Part shown: one piece after another, positions 779 to 14,305 of the stretch
Numbering within the stretch: position 1 is the stretch's first letter
Layout of the letters: each line of letters starts with the position of its first letter
Origin: a virus
Reading direction: 5' to 3' (one strand)
DNA: 39,495 nt
Virus record (IMG/VR): IMGVR_UViG_3300009788_000188
Location: 1 to 39,495 of that record
Position numbers and translations under genes: made by a program
The notes under the pieces: generated by a model
The model's input: only the letters and a program-made list of their open reading frames with translations
Told to the model about the DNA's origin: nothing
Database searches by the model: none

Positions 779-1417
779 CTATCGTGCAGAGCGCAATGCG
801 CTTCTGAAAGATCGCTCGAATATCCTCGGCCAATTGACCCGTATGGAGTTTTGGCCCCGTTCGAAAAACCTGTATCTCGGACGATAGACCGCTTGCCGTT
901 CATAGGCAAGTAGCAGTTGAAACTTACTGCCCTTGCGTATCTTGCCGCCCTTTGTTTTCGTAGGGGCCTTCCAGATACCCGCAACACCGTTGATCGTTGC
1001 AGAAAAGGCACCTCTCGCCAATTGTGCTCTTGCCATCTGACTTCTTGGCAGGTTTCCAAAGCGATTCAACTTGATTCGGCCAGGTCCCGGCTTAGCGGGT
1101 CGTAGCGCAAGGGCCACGCCCTTCGGTAACCGAATCCCTCCAAATATCTGGTATTGCAGGTACTCATTCTGCTTCGGCAAAATGAACAACCGTCCACGCA
1201 GCGTCTTCTTGTCAGCGCCATCAACCCTAAACCCGCGACGCGTGAACGGCACCGGATTCCGAATGTCCTTGTCGAGTTGTCGCAGCACATCCTTTTTTGC
1301 GACATTCAACGTCTGCGTAATGGCACGTGCGACCGCAAACGGTATCTGCTGTTTTTGAACATTCCGCAAAAACCGTTTTACCCGCTTCGTCTCGACTTTG
1401 ACCTTGATCTCGATCAT
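779..1417 (-). CDS. Minor tail protein, possibly lambda gpZ-like
   Basis: A 212-residue, strongly basic protein. The N-terminal part (residues ~20-60) is helical, with AVARAITQTLNVAKKDVLRQL resembling the start of phage minor tail protein Z or gpG-type virion morphogenesis proteins. The remainder is Arg/Lys-rich. The ATG overlaps the stop of the gene at 1414-1776 by four bases (ATGA). The gpZ-like assignment rests on the N-terminal pattern and basic composition. The position, far from the tape measure and among fibre-like genes, is unusual for gpZ. Confidence 0.55.
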   Translation of the reverse strand: MIEIKVKVETKRVKRFLRNVQKQQIPFAVARAITQTLNVAKKDVLRQLDKDIRNPVPFTRRGFRVDGADKKTLRGRLFILPKQNEYLQYQIFGGIRLPKGVALALRPAKPGPGRIKLNRFGNLPRSQMARAQLARGAFSATINGVAGIWKAPTKTKGGKIRKGSKFQLLLAYERQAVYRPRYRFFERGQNSIRVNWPRIFERSFRSALRSAR

Positions 1418-1776
1418 GTGTCGATAATGTTGTCGAGCAAATGGACCGTACCGTAAGCGACGGTCGTTTTCGATCCACCAGAGCTAGTCACACGCGCCTC
1501 GTGGTAGTAATCGCCTCCTGTGAAGCTTTCCGTATCCGTATCTTTAATTGCAACGGTGAATTTGCCGTTCGGGGCATCGGTGATCGTAATATCAGCAGGA
1601 CTAAGTAAATTGACCAAAGGTGTTTTGTTTTTTGCGGAATTAGACATCGACCATGCGATTGTTGCCCCTGAAAGATCGACTGCTATATCATCCTGATCGA
1701 GCACTGTGAAATTGAGGTTTTTATCGTTGCCAGAGACAAGCTCGAAGTCTTGAGGCACGAGTTTGAGAACGGTCAT
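1414..1776 (-). CDS. Baseplate upper protein-like (BppU/Ig-like) small protein
   Basis: A 120-residue protein. Residues ~10-95 have the pattern 'F-x-L-x-x-G-N-D-K-x-L-x-F-x-V-L-D-Q-D-x-x-x-V-D-L-S-G-A-T-I-x-W', typical of the small Ig-like domains annotated as BppU N-terminal or phage neck/fibre domains, ending in a strand set with Y-H-E-A-R-V. The ATG follows AGAGGATAG. It lies directly after the repeat-containing fibre-like gene and overlaps the basic gene downstream. A structural role in the tail appendage is inferred. Confidence 0.55.
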   Translation of the reverse strand: MTVLKLVPQDFELVSGNDKNLNFTVLDQDDIAVDLSGATIAWSMSNSAKNKTPLVNLLSPADITITDAPNGKFTVAIKDTDTESFTGGDYYHEARVTSSGGSKTTVAYGTVHLLDNIIDT

Positions 1777-1789
1777 TTTCTATCCTCTA

Positions 1790-3004
1790 TCAATTTCGTA
1801 TCACGCGGCCGGTTAGGTTCAGATTGCCATAATGCCGCGCATCGATGTCGATAGCGAGCAATCTGCCATCGAGGTCTGTATCATCGATGATTGTCACGCC
1901 ACCAGCAACAGCAGTGCCCGACGCGGTGATTGCAGGGGTATTCGGAGTTCCACTTGCGACCTTAACTGTCTTTGCTGTTCCCGCTGCAACGACACTCGAT
2001 AAAATACCGTTGCCAGAGGCAATATTGACGACAACCGCCGATCCGCTTGCTTCAATCGAGGCAATGACCGTCGCGCCAGATGCGAGGTTCCGAATTAAGG
2101 CAGTGCCCGCAGCCTGAATCGTCGGAACCGGGCCATCGCCCGACGCAGTATGTCCTGTCGCGCCCGAAACGTTTGCTGTGCCCGCCGCCTCTATCGCTGT
2201 AATCGCTGGCGAACCATTTGCGGTCTTTATGATTTTGGCTGTGCCAGCGGCCTGTATTGCAGCAAGATTCGGCGCACCGTCTGACGCAATGTTGATTATT
2301 GTAACAGTGCCAGCAGCGATGATTGCCGCAATGGTGGCAGCGCCACTTGCTGCGCGATGTACCGTGGCAGTGCCTGATGCCTCGACAGGGGGTATTGACG
2401 GTGTACCGCTTGCATCTTTTATTATCTGTGCTGTGCCCGCGGCCTCGATTGTTGGAACTGGCCCATCGCCAGATGCGGTGTGAATGATCGCGGCGTCGTA
2501 ATCGAGTATCAGTTCAATCTCGTCGATTTCCCATTGCAGACCATCAGGCCCCATGTCTTGATTATAAAGCCACTGGTAAATGTGAACGACCCAACCGTCG
2601 ATGTCGGCCGCGCTCGGCGCTACAACAGAATTGGTAAATTCCTTGTTTACGTAACCGTCACCATCCTCGGTGTCGGTCCATTCAAGTGTTGCTGTAGGCG
2701 CATTGGTTCCCTCAATTTCCATTCGCCAAGTTGATGTATCACCCTCGCCAGCAGCGGGCACTCTTGCTCTGATTTGTACTCTTATCGAATTGAACGAACT
2801 GAAATCGCCGGGTGCGTTGGTCAGGCCAAAAAGTATCTCGCCGTTTTGCGTGTTGTCTGATTGGTTCGTCCAGGCGTTGTTATTGCAAACAATCGGCGTA
2901 CCGGAAGGTGCGGCGATGGTGTTGTCAATATCGGTAAATGATCCAGACGTAATGTTGCTGGAAGCATCCGTTTGCGAAATAGGGACTAGACTAGCTGTTG
3001 CCAT
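1790..3004 (-). CDS. Repeat-containing tail fibre/appendage-like protein (9 x ~21 residues)
   Basis: About 404 residues; start chosen at the ATG at 3004 after GTGCGGGAA, inside the end of the Cys-rich gene. Residues ~1-170 look like a beta-sandwich domain (WRMEIEGTNAPTATLEW region). Then come nine tandem repeats of ~21 residues with consensus (I/T)ASGxPxIxxIxAAGTAxIIx (+ strand ~1898-2490), followed by a ~40-residue tail ending RVIRN. The repeats and tail are paralogous to the larger protein at 3260-5668. Alternating small and hydrophobic residues suggest stacked beta-turns, as in fibrous virion proteins. No enzymatic motif seen. Confidence 0.75.
   Translation of the reverse strand: MATASLVPISQTDASSNITSGSFTDIDNTIAAPSGTPIVCNNNAWTNQSDNTQNGEILFGLTNAPGDFSSFNSIRVQIRARVPAAGEGDTSTWRMEIEGTNAPTATLEWTDTEDGDGYVNKEFTNSVVAPSAADIDGWVVHIYQWLYNQDMGPDGLQWEIDEIELILDYDAAIIHTASGDGPVPTIEAAGTAQIIKDASGTPSIPPVEASGTATVHRAASGAATIAAIIAAGTVTIINIASDGAPNLAAIQAAGTAKIIKTANGSPAITAIEAAGTANVSGATGHTASGDGPVPTIQAAGTALIRNLASGATVIASIEASGSAVVVNIASGNGILSSVVAAGTAKTVKVASGTPNTPAITASGTAVAGGVTIIDDTDLDGRLLAIDIDARHYGNLNLTGRVIRN
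1898..2490 (-). repeat. Tandem 63-bp coding repeats (array B, about nine units)
   Basis: On the minus strand the segment encodes about nine units of 21 residues (one with a four-residue insertion) anchored by ASG near the start and AAGTA in the middle. Units differ by many substitutions, so this is an old, diverged array. It shares its consensus with the larger array at about 3350-4575. Confidence 0.8.
2867..2877 (+). repeat. Dispersed motif, copy 2 (one mismatch: CGTCCAGGCGT)
   Basis: 10 of 11 positions match, with C for the first T. It lies in the N-terminal part of the repeat protein and is read as N-A-W-T (phase AC|GCC|TGG|ACG). Confidence 0.75.
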
Positions 3005-3263
3005 TTCCCGCACCACATAGTTTGCAAGGCCCGCCCGCAGAAGGGTTCGGCCAGTCGCGGCAATTCATGCCTTTCGCACGATGTTTCGGCAATACCTGTT
3101 TGACGTAGCGTGGATCAGCAATTACCGCATTCCATGATCCGAGTTCTCGTCGCAAACCGCACGACCACCTGAAACCACGTTCCGTATTTTCCTCAAGAAA
3201 AATGCAAGGCTCACCATCAACGTAGCAACAATGGTCGTCCAAATTTCTGCCCTCGCATTTCAT
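2991..3263 (-). CDS. Small cysteine-rich protein
   Basis: A 90-residue protein with eight Cys (K-C-E near the start, H-C-C-Y, P-C-I, S-C-G, N-C-R, P-C-K-L-C near the end). The spacing suggests metal binding or disulfides. The ATG overlaps the stop of the repeat protein upstream (ATGA), and its end overlaps the start of the second repeat protein, so the three are translationally coupled. No signal peptide. Function not recognised; it could be a zinc-binding chaperone or a virion part associated with the fibres. Confidence 0.65.
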   Translation of the reverse strand: MKCEGRNLDDHCCYVDGEPCIFLEENTERGFRWSCGLRRELGSWNAVIADPRYVKQVLPKHRAKGMNCRDWPNPSAGGPCKLCGAGNGNS

Positions 3264-5668
3264 TTCACTATTCCCGTAAAGGCTCTGTCGATTATCCGTC
3301 CTATGATTTCCACTGTAATCTGTCGCCCCTCCAAAGCAGCCGATGTCACGACCACAACCCCGCCAACTCGCGCATCGCCAGATGCCGTAATTGCTGTAAT
3401 TGATGCAGCGCCGCTTGCTAATTTCAAAATCGTAGCAGTACCCGCAGCAACGATACTTGGCACTGGGCCGTTGCCAGAGGCGATGTTCAAAATCGTGGCA
3501 GTGCCGGCTGATTGTATGGTCGGAACGTTCGCAGATCCTGATGCGATTTTCCGAATGACAGAAACGCCAGATGCCGTAATTGGCGTAAGTGAGGCAGCGC
3601 CACTTGCCGTATTGATGATCGTCGCAATGCCCGCTGCTTCGATTGGCGCAATCGAAGGCGCACCACTCGCAGATTTTAGAATTTGTGCTGTACCGGATGC
3701 ATCAATTACAGGAATCGACGGTGTGCCTGATGCCAGCTTTTTGACGAGCGCAGCACCACTCGAATCGATGGCAGGGACTGGGCCATCGCCCGATGCCGTG
3801 ATCGTTCCGAGCACATCAGCCGTACCAGCCGCCTCGATTGCCGGGATCGATGGCGAGCCGCTTGCTGTGTTGATGATTAATGCTGTGCCAGTCGCCGTGA
3901 CAGCAGCAAGCGACGGCGAGCCGCTTGCCGTCTTGACGATGATACTAGTGCCAGCAGCCTCCACAGGAGCCAAGGTCGCGCCGCCAGACGCGATGTTGTT
4001 GACTAGCGCAGCGCCGGAAGCAACGATTGCTGTGATCGACGGTGTGCCAGAGGCCGACTTTTTGACAAGAGCATTGCCACTTGCCGTGATAGCAGGAACC
4101 GGACCATCACCCGATGCAGTTTTGCTCCCGAGAACATCGGCAGTACCCGCAGCCTCGATTGCTGTGATCGCAGGTGAGCCACTCGCGGTTTTGATAATCA
4201 AAGCGGTGCCAGCCGCCTCAATTGCGGCTATCGATGGCGCACCGTTGGCGTTGCGAATGAGGTCGACTGTGCCAGCCGATTCAATAGCAGCGATGCTCGG
4301 ACTGCCAGCAGCCGTGTTGATTATCAGTGCAGTACCAGCCGCTTCGATAGGCGCGATCGACGGTGTACCGCTGGCCGCCTTAATTACTTGCGCAGCACCC
4401 GATGCCTCGACAGGAGCGAGCGAACCTCCACCACTTGCGATATTCAGGATAATCGCAGCGCCAGCGGCAACGATAGCGGTTATCGATGGCGTGCCAGATG
4501 CGGTTTTACGAACGGTAGCGGTGCCAGCAGCCTCAACGGGTGCAATCGTGCCGCCGCCAGATGCGGTGATTATCGCTTCGGCAAATTGTATAACTTCCCA
4601 ATAGATACGCGATGCGCTAAATCCAGTACCGTTGCGCTCGAATTGCAGATTGTCGTCGGCACTGAGAATAGCCGACTGAATCATTAAAAAGGCATCATTA
4701 CCGGAGGTACTAGAATTGGTGGGAGGACGAACAGTATCGCCAGCGCAACCGCTACAATGGTGCGCGACGCTTCGCGTTCGATCCACGGCTGTGATCGATT
4801 GGTTCGTTATTGCACTCGCACCGGAGCTTAGGAATGTTGTGTTTCGCTGAACGTCATATTCGTTATTTGCGCACTCGACAATCTGCAACGTGTGCTCGGA
4901 CGAATTGCTATTGGAGGTAGCGCCCTGATTCCTTTCAAATTGGACTTCTGTCGTGCTCTCAAGGTGGGCGCTCCAAATAGCGTCCTTCATATCATCGGTC
5001 GCTTCATCCGTTTCGTAGGAATGCAGCGTGAAGCAATCGGCCATAACAACGGTCGGTGAGAAATCGATGTTTTTCGTTCTGATCGTTGTTGTTGTAGCAA
5101 CGAAGCTCTCGTCGTGATGGTGCGTGAACCACTCGTCACTGTCACAATCAACGACATAAACCGTGCCCTCAATCGTACCGCCTGACCCATTCCTAGATAC
5201 ATTCACGTTGGTCGTTGTGGTCAACACCAAACGCACAAGTGCGTCGTTCCAATCATCGTCAGACGCTGGCGGGCTGGTGTACTCGTAACTTGCGACAACA
5301 AATGCTTCATTGATGTCTGCACCGACTGACGCAGGACTGACGGTTGTCGATGTTCCCGTCATCGTAAATGCGAGCTGCTGGACGTTGATCGAGCTGTCGA
5401 ACTCGACAATGAATATCTTAATTAACGAATCGTCGTTATCCACACGAGCAGACGCAGTACAGCGAACGGCAGGGGTTCCAGCATTATCGATGATCTCGAC
5501 ATGAACCATGCGGTCTTGATGTTGGTCAGTGAGCGTGCCAGCCGCGCGAGAAGTCACCCAAGGAACACACTTTGTTTCGTCCTGTGACTTGCTCAAATTG
5601 ACAGTGACAGGCTCAAGTGTCGCGTCTAGCGTGACTTCAACAAATTCTACTGATTTCCAGATCGCCAT
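3260..5668 (-). CDS. Large repeat-containing tail fibre/appendage-like protein (19 x 21 residues)
   Basis: An 802-residue protein; the ATG is coupled to the upstream stop as TAATG. Residues ~1-370 are Ser/Thr-rich and beta-like, with two internally similar stretches (each with '...LQFERNGTG' or 'VQFERNQG'-type strands and 'xxVVDCDSDEW' or 'xxIVECANNEY' motifs). Residues ~370-760 are 19 tandem 21-residue units, consensus TASGxPSIxAIEAAGTAxIIx. The last ~40 residues are a cap similar to that of the smaller paralogue. Likely an elongated virion appendage. The family function is not known to me. Repeat number could change by recombination, given the phage's own annealase. Confidence 0.8.
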   Translation of the reverse strand: MAIWKSVEFVEVTLDATLEPVTVNLSKSQDETKCVPWVTSRAAGTLTDQHQDRMVHVEIIDNAGTPAVRCTASARVDNDDSLIKIFIVEFDSSINVQQLAFTMTGTSTTVSPASVGADINEAFVVASYEYTSPPASDDDWNDALVRLVLTTTTNVNVSRNGSGGTIEGTVYVVDCDSDEWFTHHHDESFVATTTTIRTKNIDFSPTVVMADCFTLHSYETDEATDDMKDAIWSAHLESTTEVQFERNQGATSNSNSSEHTLQIVECANNEYDVQRNTTFLSSGASAITNQSITAVDRTRSVAHHCSGCAGDTVRPPTNSSTSGNDAFLMIQSAILSADDNLQFERNGTGFSASRIYWEVIQFAEAIITASGGGTIAPVEAAGTATVRKTASGTPSITAIVAAGAAIILNIASGGGSLAPVEASGAAQVIKAASGTPSIAPIEAAGTALIINTAAGSPSIAAIESAGTVDLIRNANGAPSIAAIEAAGTALIIKTASGSPAITAIEAAGTADVLGSKTASGDGPVPAITASGNALVKKSASGTPSITAIVASGAALVNNIASGGATLAPVEAAGTSIIVKTASGSPSLAAVTATGTALIINTASGSPSIPAIEAAGTADVLGTITASGDGPVPAIDSSGAALVKKLASGTPSIPVIDASGTAQILKSASGAPSIAPIEAAGIATIINTASGAASLTPITASGVSVIRKIASGSANVPTIQSAGTATILNIASGNGPVPSIVAAGTATILKLASGAASITAITASGDARVGGVVVVTSAALEGRQITVEIIGRIIDRAFTGIVK
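3346..4575 (-). repeat. Tandem 63-bp coding repeats (array A, about 19 units)
   Basis: Translated on the minus strand, the segment gives 19 consecutive ~21-residue units. Two carry a two-residue insertion before a unit beginning TASGDGPVP, so a longer higher-order period (about five to six units) is also visible. The same bias keeps the opposite strand open for over 450 codons. Confidence 0.85.
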
Positions 5669-6051
5669 TATGGAGCCGGATAGTTAGACCAGCGTGTTTT
5701 GCCCGGCACAACGCTGTTCGCTTGCGCAATCATCGTCGCATCGACGACCTCTGCGACAATTGTATTCGCGTGGTTCGCAAGGTCATCGGCGGTAACACTG
5801 GAAAGGATAACGATTGCGTCGTCATAGATCGCATTGGGTCGCGCGACGATAGTAACGTCCGTGTAATCGCCCCATTTTTTGATGCGTTGCTCGGTAGCAA
5901 TCGAAGCCAAGTACGTATCCTGCGAATCGACCGTATCTTTGAACACGGCCCTCGCAACAACGAGCGAAGCATTGTGTATCTGTGTCAGCGTAAATGTCGC
6001 AAGCGCAGCCTCACCTGCCTGTAGAGCTTCTGCCCGGAATCTAAATCGCAA
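5668..6051 (-). CDS. Hypothetical protein, likely virion-associated
   Basis: 127 residues, mixed alpha/beta, no membrane segment or recognisable motif. It is the first gene after the terminator at 6070-6102 and is coupled by a TAATG overlap to the large repeat protein. A role in the same appendage is inferred from the coupling alone. If that terminator is efficient, a promoter for this transcript should lie in the ~50 bases before 6051; I could not pick one out. Confidence 0.65.
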   Translation of the reverse strand: MRFRFRAEALQAGEAALATFTLTQIHNASLVVARAVFKDTVDSQDTYLASIATEQRIKKWGDYTDVTIVARPNAIYDDAIVILSSVTADDLANHANTIVAEVVDATMIAQANSVVPGKTRWSNYPAP

Positions 6052-6126: not shown

Positions 6127-6498
6127 TTATGACGCTGGTACGGTGATCGTCAATGCAGTCAAATCAACTTGGTCAGTCGCGCCCACGATGGTCGAGCTGA
6201 TAATTATTTCCGTACCGGAGGTGCCGACAGTCAATTCCCACTGTTTCGTGGGTGTACCGTTGCGTCCAGAGAATTGAACAGTCGTGCCACCAGTTGCGCT
6301 CGCGTCTGAAAGGGTAACGCCGAGCAGCGTGATTACACCCGCCGCAGCAGCACCGAATGCAGGGTTCTGTACCGACGCCATTGTTGCGACCTCGGCATCG
6401 GCTGATGTTTCGAACAGCAGCGAGCCGGGGCCAGTGGTATTGAAATTGAGGTCTATCTCATCGGCGAGAAAATTTCGAAGTGCTGCTTCAAGGTTCAT
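6127..6498 (-). CDS. Hypothetical protein, beta-rich, possible structural protein
   Basis: 123 residues. A helical start (NLEAALRNFLADEID) is followed by Thr/Ser/Gly/Val-rich strands. Composition resembles small head- or tail-decorating proteins. The ATG overlaps the upstream stop (ATGA), and the gene is the last before the terminator at 6070-6102. No family recognised. Confidence 0.65.
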   Translation of the reverse strand: MNLEAALRNFLADEIDLNFNTTGPGSLLFETSADAEVATMASVQNPAFGAAAAGVITLLGVTLSDASATGGTTVQFSGRNGTPTKQWELTVGTSGTEIIISSTIVGATDQVDLTALTITVPAS

Positions 6499-13022: not shown

Positions 13023-13189
13023 CAGTACGGTCCTCCACCCGGTGGATACTTCTGACAGGCATTCGTCAATCGTTCCTGTTCGAGTCGTAATTTCTTGACT
13101 TCAACGCGAAGCGACTCGATTCCTTCGCTCTGTTTTTCGACAGCAAGTAGTAAATCGTGAACGGCGTGTCGCAGGATCATGTCGCTCAT
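13022..13189 (-). CDS. Small coiled-coil protein
   Basis: 55 residues from the ATG at 13189, overlapping the RecT stop (ATGA). Residues ~10-42 form one charged coiled coil (LLLAVEKQSEGIESLRVEVK), ending PPGGGPY. Not recognised; possibly an accessory to the annealase/exonuclease pair by position. Confidence 0.6.
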   Translation of the reverse strand: MSDMILRHAVHDLLLAVEKQSEGIESLRVEVKKLRLEQERLTNACQKYPPGGGPY

Positions 13190-14061
13190 ACCGGCGCAAC
13201 CATCCGTACAGCTTCGTCGAAGCACTTCTCAGGAATCAACGACAGTGACACTACTCCGAATGCACGACACACGGTATCAGTGGAAATGTTGTGTTCCGAG
13301 CAAAGGTCGGTGAGTTGATTGGTCTGGCTTCGGCTGATGATTCGAACGGCCTCGCCCTCGAAAGTCACAGGTTCGATTGTGTCCATGACCTCGATTGCTC
13401 GCTGCATCTTGCCCTCTGCATCGTGAGGCCAATGTTTCCATCCTCGACGGATCACAGCCTTTTTTCGCATTTCGTCTTTGAACGGGCCGCGCCAAACGGC
13501 ACCGCCGCGTTTTCCACTGCGTTGCTTTTTCTGTGCGTGTTCCTCAACTGCATCGAGTTGTTCGCGATCCATTACCTCGACGTGCTGTTTGCCATTTCTG
13601 AACTGCGCGATGCAATAGGCGTGAGTGACTTCGCCGCGATCCTTTCGTGCTTCCTCGTGCATGATGTACCGACCATCCGGACCTGTGCCGACTCGGAACA
13701 CTGGATCATTCTCGCAAGCGAGCGCCGCCTGTATCGCGATCACCACGCCGGTTCCAAAAGCCATCTGCTCCATGCCGCGATAGCCGATGCAGAGCGTCGC
13801 TTTGTCTCCGTAGGGTATTAGGTACAGAAGCGACTGCGACGGTGCTAGAGTCAATCCTGTGTACGCCACATCGAGCAGCGCATTGTGTATCGACTCCGGA
13901 CTGCACTTGCGCAAATACTCGCTGCCTTGAATGATCTGCAACGCAAAATTCCGCTGCGCGGAAAATTTGAGAGTCTTGTCGGGTCGCCCTGCGTTGAATC
14001 GTGCGATTAGTGATCGGTCGGTGAGAATTTCTTTGTATTCCTTTAATGCGTGTGTCGTCAT
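13186..14061 (-). CDS. RecT-family single-strand annealing protein
   Basis: 291 residues from the ATG at 14061 (AGGAACGG upstream). Features of the RecT family: an N-terminal helical part, S-I-H-N-A-L-L-D-V-A-Y-T-G-L-T-L-A-P, then Y-L-I-P-Y-G-D-K-A-T-L-C-I-G-Y-R-G-M, and the later region FKDEMRKKAVIRRGWKHWP. RecT proteins bind ssDNA, anneal complementary strands and, with the partner exonuclease, drive phage recombination. ATGA coupling downstream leads to a coiled-coil gene, a lipoprotein and then the exonuclease. Confidence 0.9.
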   Translation of the reverse strand: MTTHALKEYKEILTDRSLIARFNAGRPDKTLKFSAQRNFALQIIQGSEYLRKCSPESIHNALLDVAYTGLTLAPSQSLLYLIPYGDKATLCIGYRGMEQMAFGTGVVIAIQAALACENDPVFRVGTGPDGRYIMHEEARKDRGEVTHAYCIAQFRNGKQHVEVMDREQLDAVEEHAQKKQRSGKRGGAVWRGPFKDEMRKKAVIRRGWKHWPHDAEGKMQRAIEVMDTIEPVTFEGEAVRIISRSQTNQLTDLCSEHNISTDTVCRAFGVVSLSLIPEKCFDEAVRMVAPV

Positions 14062-14083
14062 ATTTCCGTTCCTGTTGTTGTGT

Positions 14084-14305
14084 TCAGTCGTCGTCCAGCT
14101 CGCACAAGAACTCGATAGCAATCGCCTTTTCAGGAGTGAATTTCTCGCCCTCGTCCTCTGCCATTTGAGCGCAAAGTTCTCGCTCTGCTTTCTCTGCTTT
14201 ACTGACCGCTTCCGTCAGCGTGCGCGCACAGACATTTTTCGTGCTGCCGTGTCTGGCTGGATACTTCATGTCTCCCATTTTTACTTGCCATACTTTCGTT
14301 TTCAT
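14084..14305 (-). CDS. Hypothetical small protein
   Basis: 73 residues; the ATG overlaps the csrA stop (ATATGA). A beta start (KVWQVKMGD), then a helix with acidic residues and ELDDD at the end. Tight coupling to the CsrA homologue suggests co-regulation. Not recognised. Confidence 0.65.
   Translation of the reverse strand: MKTKVWQVKMGDMKYPARHGSTKNVCARTLTEAVSKAEKAERELCAQMAEDEGEKFTPEKAIAIEFLCELDDD

Follow-up and report, generated by a model that had tools for sequence, protein, structure and literature searches.

Two 21-residue-repeat proteins and a predicted garland-fold neighbour in an uncultured phage: a putative adhesion module

IMG/VR record IMGVR_UViG_3300009788_000188, whose 39,495 nucleotides are the window analysed here, encodes two neighbouring proteins, A and B, that carry arrays of a diverged 21-residue unit. 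The question raised by this locus is what such proteins do for a phage and what maintains their repeats. It is probable that A and B form the large subunits of a virion adhesion-appendage module, in which a variable N-terminal domain is followed by a repeat shaft and a C-terminal cap. The observed basis for this assignment is the repeats themselves, the cap common to A and B, the near-saturated silent sites and the linkage of the genes; the fold predicted for a 123-aa partner and, by analogy, the recurrence of this pairing in phages whose virions have been analysed by proteomics point the same way.

Architecture of the repeat proteins

A preliminary description of this DNA had reported two proteins with 19 and 9 repeat copies, and the same unit counts are found in A and B (Table 1). 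The span it gave, 1898-4575, is right at its ends to within a few bases, but also takes in non-repeat sequence, namely the A C-terminal cap, the B N-terminal domain and one small ORF. When all 28 units are aligned, with one B unit's extra residue taken out beforehand, column 2 is alanine, columns 4 and 15 are glycine and column 11 is isoleucine or valine in 28/28, and column 13 is alanine in 25/28. Identity at a lag of 21 residues is 0.44 in A, where the largest of 2000 shuffles gives 0.20, and 0.33 in B, where the largest shuffle gives 0.23. The higher-order period that had also been proposed holds in A, whose units five apart are more alike than in permuted order in both protein (0.578) and DNA (0.607; 0/3000 permutations each); in B the signal is marginal in the protein (p = 0.055) and absent from the DNA (p = 0.53).

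Table 1. Features of the repeat-protein locus and the annealing-protein gene
Feature	Position	Strand	Basis
Minor tail protein (phrog_1924 E 3.5e-37), downstream neighbour of BppU-like gene	779..1417	minus	
120-aa BppU_N/Ig-like protein (phrog_1084 E 3.5e-17), presumed adaptor, downstream of array	1414..1776	minus	
Protein B, 404 aa counted from the ATG; the ORF is open from a GTG at 3016	1790..3004	minus	
B C-terminal cap, 37 aa	1793..1903	minus	alignment vs shuffles
B repeat array, 9 units of 21-25 aa	1904..2479	minus	
B N-terminal domain, 175 aa, predicted beta-sandwich (low confidence)	2480..3004	minus	
90-aa cysteine-rich ORF between A and B; overlaps B start by 14 bases	2991..3263	minus	
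Protein A, 802 aa	3260..5668	minus	ORF
A C-terminal cap, 34 aa, common to B	3263..3364	minus	alignment vs shuffles
A repeat array, residues 368-768, 19 units of 21-23 aa, five-unit super-period	3365..4567	minus	
A N-terminal part, residues 1-367	4568..5668	minus	all-beta appearance by eye
127-aa ORF between garland-fold gene and A	5668..6051	minus	
123-aa protein, predicted garland/T4 gp8-like fold, presumed fibre connector	6127..6498	minus	AlphaFold2, Foldseek, VIA-align, profile
RecT-like annealing protein	13186..14121	minus	E 4.6e-43

The two proteins end alike and begin differently, as had been suggested. Their caps align with a score of 38, which none of 500 shuffles reaches (shuffled mean 1.7, s.d. 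6.1); their N-terminal parts show no likeness beyond shuffles, 160/300 of which reach the observed score. The B domain exists alone as a 202-aa protein in locus L004 (66% identity), and as this stand-alone homologue begins at the matching residue, B probably starts at the ATG at 3004. Its AlphaFold2 model weakly matches carbohydrate-binding folds (7kwc Z 8.7). Protein A has no Pfam family down to E 0.1, its N-terminal part included, and its PHROG matches are weak (best E 0.0032). Domain swapping, part of the earlier proposal, is borne out at the N terminus by a LamG domain ahead of the array in locus L006, by globular stretches between units in L003 and by the stand-alone domain of L004. A cap common to other phages was considered and dropped, and the A-B cap alone is retained, since comparisons of the window's caps with L031, L025, L024 and L034 do not clearly beat shuffles (best cross-phage scores: B against L025, 1/500 shuffles; B against L031, 4/500; A against L025, 14/500).

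Among the loci compared, the unit sequences match only L003, L006, L007, L008, L010 and L011 (E 1e-3), and tblastn against 50,697 phage records, with A, B and the repeat proteins of L003 and L011 as queries, gives no matches. We found no Pfam model for short tandem-repeat phage proteins of this class and no description of these repeats in the open-access literature searched. Two scans of genome contigs, one using the 123-aa alignment and the other the L006 array, return no relatives, and thus no prophage or host was found.

Neighbouring genes and counterparts in other phages

The gene upstream of A and B encodes a 123-aa protein modelled by AlphaFold2 with a pLDDT of 85.6. Foldseek (E 4.5e-4) and VIA-align (Z 11.5) match the model to the 7-7-1 garland protein 9rkv_A, and a sequence profile of 16 family members searched against the PDB finds the same chain (E 9.7e-4). 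Further VIA-align matches are the Sf14 neck chain 9c39_K (Z 9.3; the structure includes whiskers) and the Bas63 connector 9mt4_K (Z 9.1), followed more weakly by GP4 fibre I 8jou_a (Z 6.2), A511 gp105 (Z 5.7) and the T4 baseplate chain 5hx2_B (Z 5.1). Proteins with the garland/T4 gp8-like fold are known as dimers that attach fibres to the virion. The 123-aa protein is a predicted member of this fold; its dimerisation and contacts are likewise putative, and its role as a fibre connector is presumed. The protein itself gives a weak PHROG match (phrog_3758 E 0.014) and its relatives strong ones; no Pfam family is matched at E 0.1, and so neither is Gp80 (PF23140). Downstream of the array, the 120-aa protein scores 16.5 bits against BppU_N (PF10651), under the Pfam gathering score of 23.1. 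The PHROG label for both partner families is that of head proteins, and any placement of the module on the virion is thus tentative.

Repeats and partners are linked in other loci too. With a periodic ORF defined by a lag of 15-30, a z of 5 or more and 0/100 shuffles, such an ORF starts within 4.5 kb of the 123-aa-family gene in 14/16 loci with at least 4.3 kb of downstream sequence (L014 and L015 being near-identical contigs, and L013 and L017 left out as too short). L009 is a fifteenth, with frameshifted repeats seen by eye in another frame; L018 has the family without a periodic neighbour; and in L007 the true frame gives z 20, the linkage script having taken an overlapping one. Most of these neighbours have no recognisable sequence similarity to the window's units, with place and period alone in common. 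Overall, 32/253 ORFs of at least 200 aa are periodic, and 22 of the 32 sit in the slot beside a 123-aa or BppU-like gene. The BppU-like gene has a periodic ORF immediately upstream in 9/12 loci with enough sequence, L025-L028 sharing one repeat protein as judged from its length, position and lag, or in 10/12 with L021, whose coding strand shows a lag of 23 where the script took the opposite strand; L020 and L032 have no periodic ORF. These counts leave out L022, L029 and L030, which are too short, together with L033 and L035. By eye, a 102-aa gene of Vibrio phage K354 (L033:10426..10734) resembled BppU, but neither profile nor Pfam bore this out. As for the Gp80 family, phiCbK has such a gene beside a non-periodic gp73 (z 1.4), and CRP-4, Lietuvens and phiM5 (3/6 Gp80 isolates) have no ORF with a z of at least 5 among the genes tested.

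A close parallel in a cultured phage is 7-7-1, which like the window has 123-aa-family genes and 21-aa repeat proteins in one cluster. This cluster lies upstream of the large terminase and holds a tail fibre, two 123-aa-family proteins and two repeat proteins. In a set of eight proteins, gp103 and tag 000105 match the family profile with E 4e-8 and 4e-14, and the latter (profile E 3.7e-14; phrog_3758 E 2.8e-37) is gp106 by mass. The repeat proteins are gp108 (best lag 41, then 21; z 7.1) and gp109 (lag 21, z 16.7). According to Table 1 of PMC3517404, gp103, gp106, gp107 and gp108 are virion proteins by mass spectrometry, so that the particle contains one repeat protein and both garland-family proteins; gp109 is absent between gp108 and gp111 in that table. 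A scan of eight genes of the cluster shows no BppU-like gene. Milano carries homologues of both repeat proteins (57% for gp108, 47% for gp109) upstream of its terminase; its linear record has the repeat proteins at its start and the garland gene at its end. Both phages differ from the window in that they are contractile-tailed Agrobacterium phages and in that their repeats are not recognisably related to its own. An extended gp108 would be about 112 nm long, within the 88-114 nm reported for the 7-7-1 capsid fibre, and could be taken for that fibre. This idea was set aside, because any protein of about that size fits the length and because Milano keeps homologues of gp108 and gp109 though, according to its authors, no long curly tail or head fibres were identified there.

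A second parallel is the three-protein LSH1 virion module, described (PMC13243795) as a payload, a GP4-fibre-like dimer, an Ig fold and one poorly predicted region left unexplained. Like the window, with its connector gene, two large modular genes and Ig-like gene (Table 1), LSH1 gp34-36 combine a large protein, whose N-terminal domain resembles a binding domain or an enzyme and whose C-terminal part is poorly predicted, with a small dimeric fibre-like protein and an Ig-fold protein, and the LSH1 products are all detected in the virion. The gene order differs, and the LSH1 dimeric partner matches the GP4 fibre protein. Repeats in this module are raised by the authors as a possibility only, and Slicko01 is named as carrying related payload domains. 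In Slicko01 a repeat protein (lag 20, z 14.5) is directly followed by a BppU-like gene and then by a weakly Gp80-like gene; this repeat protein is a candidate for the one meant in that paper. Gp80-family genes also lie near repeat proteins in several phages, and the fold predicted for the 123-aa protein, which has no Pfam match of its own, resembles that of GP4 fibre I (gp80, PF23140, 8JOU).

For a phage known from its genes in an uncultured record, we infer the presence of A and B in the virion, as the preliminary description had supposed, from the gene module and the proteomics of relatives. In the adhesion appendage, the variable N-terminal domain would probably bind a ligand, most likely a sugar in the case of B; the shaft would be built from the 21-residue units, with the array setting its reach; and the common cap presumably docks on the particle. 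The array itself would be kept by selection on the unit rather than by ongoing recombination. T4 Hoc, which is attached at its C terminus and displays a variable N-terminal string, resembles this proposed layout in polarity alone; it consists of Ig domains strung together and sits on the hexamers of the capsid. An appendage of this kind would join three loose ends: the tandem-repeat phage proteins, the poorly predicted region of the LSH1 module and the unidentified garland string of the Agrobacterium phages. A simple search rule would follow as well: in uncultured phages, a 21-residue repeat protein encoded after a garland-fold gene would mark an adhesion module.

Fold and partner of the repeat units

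It may be, and we suggest this tentatively, that the shaft is a right-handed parallel beta-helix rod with one unit per rung, which would be about 9 nm long in A and 4 nm in B. Rods of this kind occur in phage depolymerases, and 21 residues is a usual length for a beta-helix rung. AlphaFold2 models the repeats as a beta-helix, with about three strands per unit in B, and residues about 170 to 375 of the B model match the beta-helix proteins 7vul (Klebsiella phage depolymerase; Z 12.4) and GH87 (Z 11.6). However, these values lie under the Z of about 13 below which, by the structural aligner's own note, matches are not diagnostic for repeats, and the pLDDT is 57-70 apart from one block at 40, so that the stacked beta structure anticipated earlier is weakly supported. 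Foldseek with the repeat model finds no match at E 1e-3, strongly hydrophobic residues make up only 18-32% of the eight arrays measured, and AlphaFold2 is reported to predict unrealistic beta-solenoids from repeats (PMC11795689). A beta-propeller was also considered, as the PDB sequences matched best are those of designed Pizza propellers (E 0.05 with A alone, 0.002 with the profile), and dropped because a 21-residue unit with a five-unit super-period does not correspond to a 42-residue blade.

A somewhat doubtful alternative is that the array is a docking string, in which each unit is an extended peptide that threads or augments a 123-aa garland-fold dimer and the unit count fixes the number of beads and the fibre length. 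Precedents exist: A511 proteins of the garland/gp8 fold class are strung on an extended chain, the gp30 chain threads the Sf14 whiskers, and the Milano authors call the glue or string of the garland unclear and name gp126 as a possible candidate. The linkage of bead and repeat genes and the repeat proteins beside the 7-7-1 garland genes would also be expected. In addition, the period seems to track the partner and not the repeat sequence, being 21 in 13/15 contigs of the 123-aa family (7-7-1 included) versus 18 (twice), 20 (three times) and 23 among six Gp80-linked loci (Fisher p 5e-4). In L016, periods of 21 and 23 score nearly equally depending on the windowing; counting it as not 21 gives 12/15 (p 0.0015), and adding the Gp80 loci PVJ1 (20), DB2 (22) and Nigel (20) gives 12/15 versus 0/9 (p 3e-4). 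However, the loci of this test are not independent of one another, the Gp80 match is below the Pfam cut-off for L025, Slicko01 and L021, PVJ1, DB2 and Nigel are assigned by tblastn alone, and L019 (lag 20) is left out, no partner having been identified. The beta-helical AlphaFold2 models also speak against extended units.

The full form of this proposal, a programmed string with each unit captured by one garland/gp8-fold dimer, is rather unlikely. If true, it would describe a beads-on-a-string fibre whose length is written in repeat number; the bead would dictate the period and so conserve it, even as the sequence of the repeats changes past recognition. Under this model, the repeat proteins that 7-7-1 and Milano encode near their garland genes would become candidates for the string which the authors of the Milano study were unable to identify. 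Both phages are grown in the laboratory and have cryo-EM maps, which makes the binding partner of the repeats directly testable.

An unlikely model is a trimeric beta-spiral shaft, as in the adenovirus fibre and some phage fibres. The short beta-turn units, the conserved glycine and the fibre-like character of the proteins would fit, as does the adenovirus-like model that the 7-7-1 authors propose for its capsid fibres. The adenovirus repeat is about 15 residues, however, and the 21-residue unit is longer.

Age and length of the arrays

The preliminary description had seen ancient duplication here, with which the silent sites agree: between units of the window they are 0.38 identical versus 0.32 expected from codon use, and thus nearly saturated. 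It had also raised the possibility of length variation driven by the phage's annealase (Table 1), which finds no support, as the units share little annealable DNA. An exonuclease gene does accompany that of the annealase, and unit number ranges from about 4 to 21 among relatives, which are distant phages; in two of these, L008 and L011, silent-site identity is modestly raised, and L011 has an exact repeat of 29 bp. A recombination-driven array of variable length is nevertheless highly improbable for the window. TRF detects no array of unit length there, and exact DNA repeats reach at most 18 bp inside A, 12 bp inside B and 15 bp from one to the other. Units A7 and A12 are 90% identical in protein and 25% identical at silent sites.

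The repeat proteins and their relatives

The window encodes a tailed phage (a 39,495-base IMG/VR virus record), with terminase, portal, capsid, tape measure and tail genes, and it includes two genes for proteins A and B, which carry arrays of 21-residue units. With 19 and nine units respectively, a higher-order period in A, a C-terminal cap common to A and B and N-terminal parts that differ, the repeats are as the preliminary description had them. Some units are longer than 21 residues by one to four, and three positions (A2, G4 and G15) are invariant over the 28 units. The lag-21 identity of the arrays is far greater than that of shuffles. Units five apart in A are alike above chance in both protein and DNA (0 of 3000 permutations); in B, the protein signal at this spacing is marginal and the DNA signal is absent. 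Neither protein has a Pfam match at E 0.1, and PHROG matches are weak. The cysteine-rich ORF between them matches no Pfam or PHROG family.

Coordinates of the features discussed (L numbers are compared loci)
Feature	Position	Strand	Description
Protein A	window, left end, 3260..5668	minus	802 aa; 19 units of 21 residues
Protein B	window, left end, 1790..3004 (ATG at 3004)	minus	404 aa; nine units
Cysteine-rich ORF	window, 2991-3263		90 aa; between A and B, overlapping the start of B
BppU-like gene	window, 1414..1776		120 aa; Ig-like
123-aa gene	window, 6127..6498		123 aa
Protein with a different repeat	L004:9782-13261		1159 aa
N-terminal domain and repeat array	L009:10773-11700		in different frames; break near domain junction
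ORF after repeat gene	L010:11857-20366		2836 aa
ORF after repeat gene	L011:13349-20366		2339 aa
Sphingopyxis phage VSN-002 ORF	L034:5956-7422 (MZ127829)		488 aa; unannotated
Octadecabacter DB virus 2 gp11	L047:6708-8234		annotated ribonuclease E
Mycobacterium phage Nigel gp28	L048:3321-4481		minor tail protein

Among the loci compared at that stage, six IMG/VR contigs (L003, L006, L007, L008, L010 and L011) contain sequence relatives of the units; here about 4 to 21 units are joined to different N-terminal parts. No unit relatives were detected in named phages by tblastn of the A, B, L003 and L011 repeat proteins against 50,697 phage records. The N-terminal part in L006 is a LamG domain (Pfam E 1.4e-16), and in the 2132-aa repeat protein of L003 the units are interrupted by globular stretches. 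The B N-terminal domain has a stand-alone homologue of 202 aa in L004 (66% identity). AlphaFold2 predicts this domain, at low confidence, to be a beta-sandwich, and the model weakly matches sugar-binding folds, including the surface glycan-binding protein 7kwc (Z 8.7) and a CBM32 (Z 7.0). Separated by one gene from the stand-alone homologue is a large protein whose repeat is of another kind (lag 44, VLAGQIP motif) and which has, by eye, a LamG-like stretch. In L010 and L011, a long ORF directly follows the repeat gene and reaches the locus end.

Partner genes and neighbouring repeat proteins in other phages

The 123-aa protein is 71% identical to its relative in L003; for the BppU-like protein the figure is 35%. 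The AlphaFold2 model of the 123-aa protein is good (pLDDT 85.6) and matches a protein in 9rkv, the phage 7-7-1 tail-fibre structure (Foldseek E 4.5e-4; Z 11.5), which is gp103 by sequence and agrees with the garland protein that PMC12796354 describes. The next matches are an Sf14 neck chain (Z 9.3), a Bas63 connector (Z 9.1) and GP4 fibre I (Z 6.2), with A511 gp105 (Z 5.7) and the T4 baseplate (Z 5.1) lower. As described in PMC10811340, the Milano garland proteins, T4 gp8 and A511 gp105 have a common fold, and dimers of these proteins help to join the baseplate to receptor-binding proteins. The same paper describes three such dimers in A511 as beads on a string, each crossed by an extended chain belonging to another protein. 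A single chain is reported to thread two of the Sf14 whiskers (PMC11821841). Since PHROG places both partner families in head and packaging, the module may sit at the baseplate, neck or head.

Eighteen loci of the 123-aa family were taken, 16 of them with at least 4.3 kb downstream. A periodic ORF (period of 15-30 residues, z 5 or more, 0 of 100 shuffles) begins within 4.5 kb in 14 of these 16; among the 14, L014 and L015 are near-identical, and in L007 the true frame is periodic, the script having picked an overlapping one. L018, also of this family, has no periodic neighbour. In L009 the repeats are in a different frame from the N-terminal domain, and the break is either a sequencing error or a real frameshift. 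A periodic ORF is directly upstream of the BppU-like gene in 9 of the 12 loci with enough upstream sequence, or in 10 if L021 is included, the coding strand of which shows lag 23; L025 to L028 share one repeat protein, as judged by its length, position and lag. The BppU-like genes of L020 and L032 lack a periodic ORF directly upstream. Among all 253 ORFs that reach 200 aa, periodicity is seen in 32, of which 22 are beside a 123-aa gene or directly before a BppU-like gene. Outside the six related contigs (and, by eye, L009), repeats in these slots bear no recognisable relation to the window units. The VSN-002 ORF, located in a gap of the deposited annotation, combines a glycine-rich N-terminal part with a period of roughly 23 residues.

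A further partner family is Gp80 (PF23140, GP4 fibre I family). Phage phiCbK has a Gp80-family gene (E 1.7e-16), yet the next gene is not periodic, and in three of six Gp80 isolates none of the ORFs tested reaches z 5. In Octadecabacter DB virus 2, gp11 has a 22-residue repeat (z 30) and is encoded three genes downstream of a member of the Gp80 family; its ribonuclease E label is probably wrong. Nigel gp28 has a 20-residue period (z 7.8) and is directly upstream of a Gp80-family gene; the pairing of partner and repeat protein may thus extend to well-studied mycobacteriophages.

According to the account in PMC13243795, phage LSH1 has three virion proteins that always co-occur among LSH1-related IMG/VR genomes: a payload, a dimer that resembles the GP4 fibre protein, and a protein with an Ig fold. 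The payload combines a lyase-like N-terminal domain with a poorly predicted C-terminal part, in which the authors raise the possibility of a hidden repetitive motif, and related payload domains are said there to be carried by Slicko01. One Slicko01 protein, 1843 aa long, has repeats at lag 20 (z 14.5) and is presumably the one meant; it is followed directly by a BppU-like profile match (E 5.9e-7) and then a weak, below cut-off Gp80 match (E 0.0036). A version of the LSH1 module is probably present in the window, as judged via Slicko01 and not from LSH1 itself.

In phage 7-7-1, a cluster upstream of the large terminase comprises the tail fibre gp102, the garland protein gp103, gene 104, tag 000105, gp107, gp108 and gp109. 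Tag 000105 belongs, like gp103, to the 123-aa family (phrog_3758, E 2.8e-37 for tag 000105), and repeats are present in gp108 (lag 41, then 21; z 7.1) and gp109 (lag 21; z 16.7). The virion proteins identified by mass spectrometry include gp102, gp103, gp106, gp107 and gp108, and no entry for gp109 stands between those for gp108 and gp111 (Table 1, PMC3517404). The mass listed for gp106, 14,221, is 18 below that computed for the tag-000105 product; because the masses listed for gp102, gp103, gp107 and gp108 are similarly 17 to 19 below those computed, gp106 is this product. Counterparts of all four of gp107, gp108, gp109 and gp106 occur in Milano, where each except that of gp109 is annotated as virion-associated. 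The Milano garland string was not known to its authors, who name gp126 as a possible candidate (PMC10811340); the repeat proteins nearby are further candidates.

Probable working and possible structure of the array

In the arrangement we consider most likely, the N-terminal domain of A or B would bind a ligand on the host or in its surroundings, the repeat array would supply reach, the C-terminal cap would dock, and the garland-fold and Ig-like proteins would attach these parts to the particle.

The array may be a docking string for garland dimers, and for this model the repeat period is the most telling number. In contigs with a 123-aa-family partner and repeats, the period is 21 in 13 of 15 (the window, L006, L007, L008, L010, L011, L012, L014, L015, L016, L033, L035 and 7-7-1), with L003 (22) and L034 (23) as exceptions; lags 21 and 23 score nearly alike in L016, their order depending on the stretch scored. 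Gp80 partners accompany periods of 23 (L021), 18 (L024, where lags 18 and 20 are almost tied, and L025) and 20 (L031, Slicko01 and C72C1). Period 21 is associated with partner family at Fisher p 5e-4, or 0.0015 if L016 is not counted as 21; with three added Gp80 loci (periods 20, 22 and 20), the strict count is 12 of 15 versus 0 of 9 (p 3e-4), a lead only, given that the loci lack independence and that several are weakly assigned to Gp80. Garland-like connectors are already known from phage adhesion modules; the literature searched yielded no description of period being linked to partner.

It may instead be that the array forms a beta-helix rod, as in the AlphaFold2 model, which resembles a phage depolymerase (Z 12.4). 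However, pLDDT is 57-70 over most of the repeats, Foldseek gives no significant match, and AlphaFold2 reportedly produces spurious folds of this kind (PMC11795689). A trimeric spiral is also possible.

Age of the array

The age of the arrays was assessed from unit pairs with an identical four-fold degenerate amino acid, comparing base agreement with that expected from codon use. Silent-base agreement among the window units is 0.38 versus 0.32 expected, and the most alike pair, A7 and A12, has 90% protein identity and a silent agreement of 0.25. Exact DNA repeats reach at most 18 bp within A, 12 bp within B and 15 bp between the two, and no array of unit length is detected there by Tandem Repeats Finder. 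With silent sites near saturation, exact repeats short and no such array, the window units are old and kept alike by protein selection. Length variation driven by the phage annealase had been suggested earlier; despite the RecT-like annealing protein and exonuclease genes in the window, its DNA gives no sign of an array still being shuffled. Silent sites are also near saturation in L006 (0.311 versus 0.308) and L007 (0.372 versus 0.395). Modest excesses are seen in L008 (0.492 versus 0.420), L011 (0.465 versus 0.380; exact repeats up to 29 bp) and L010, whose array is very short (0.652 versus 0.610). In L006 (units 10 and 20) and L011 (units 3, 6, 9, 14 and 17), a two-residue extension recurs at the unit end, just before the next unit; in L008 the recurring extension is one residue.
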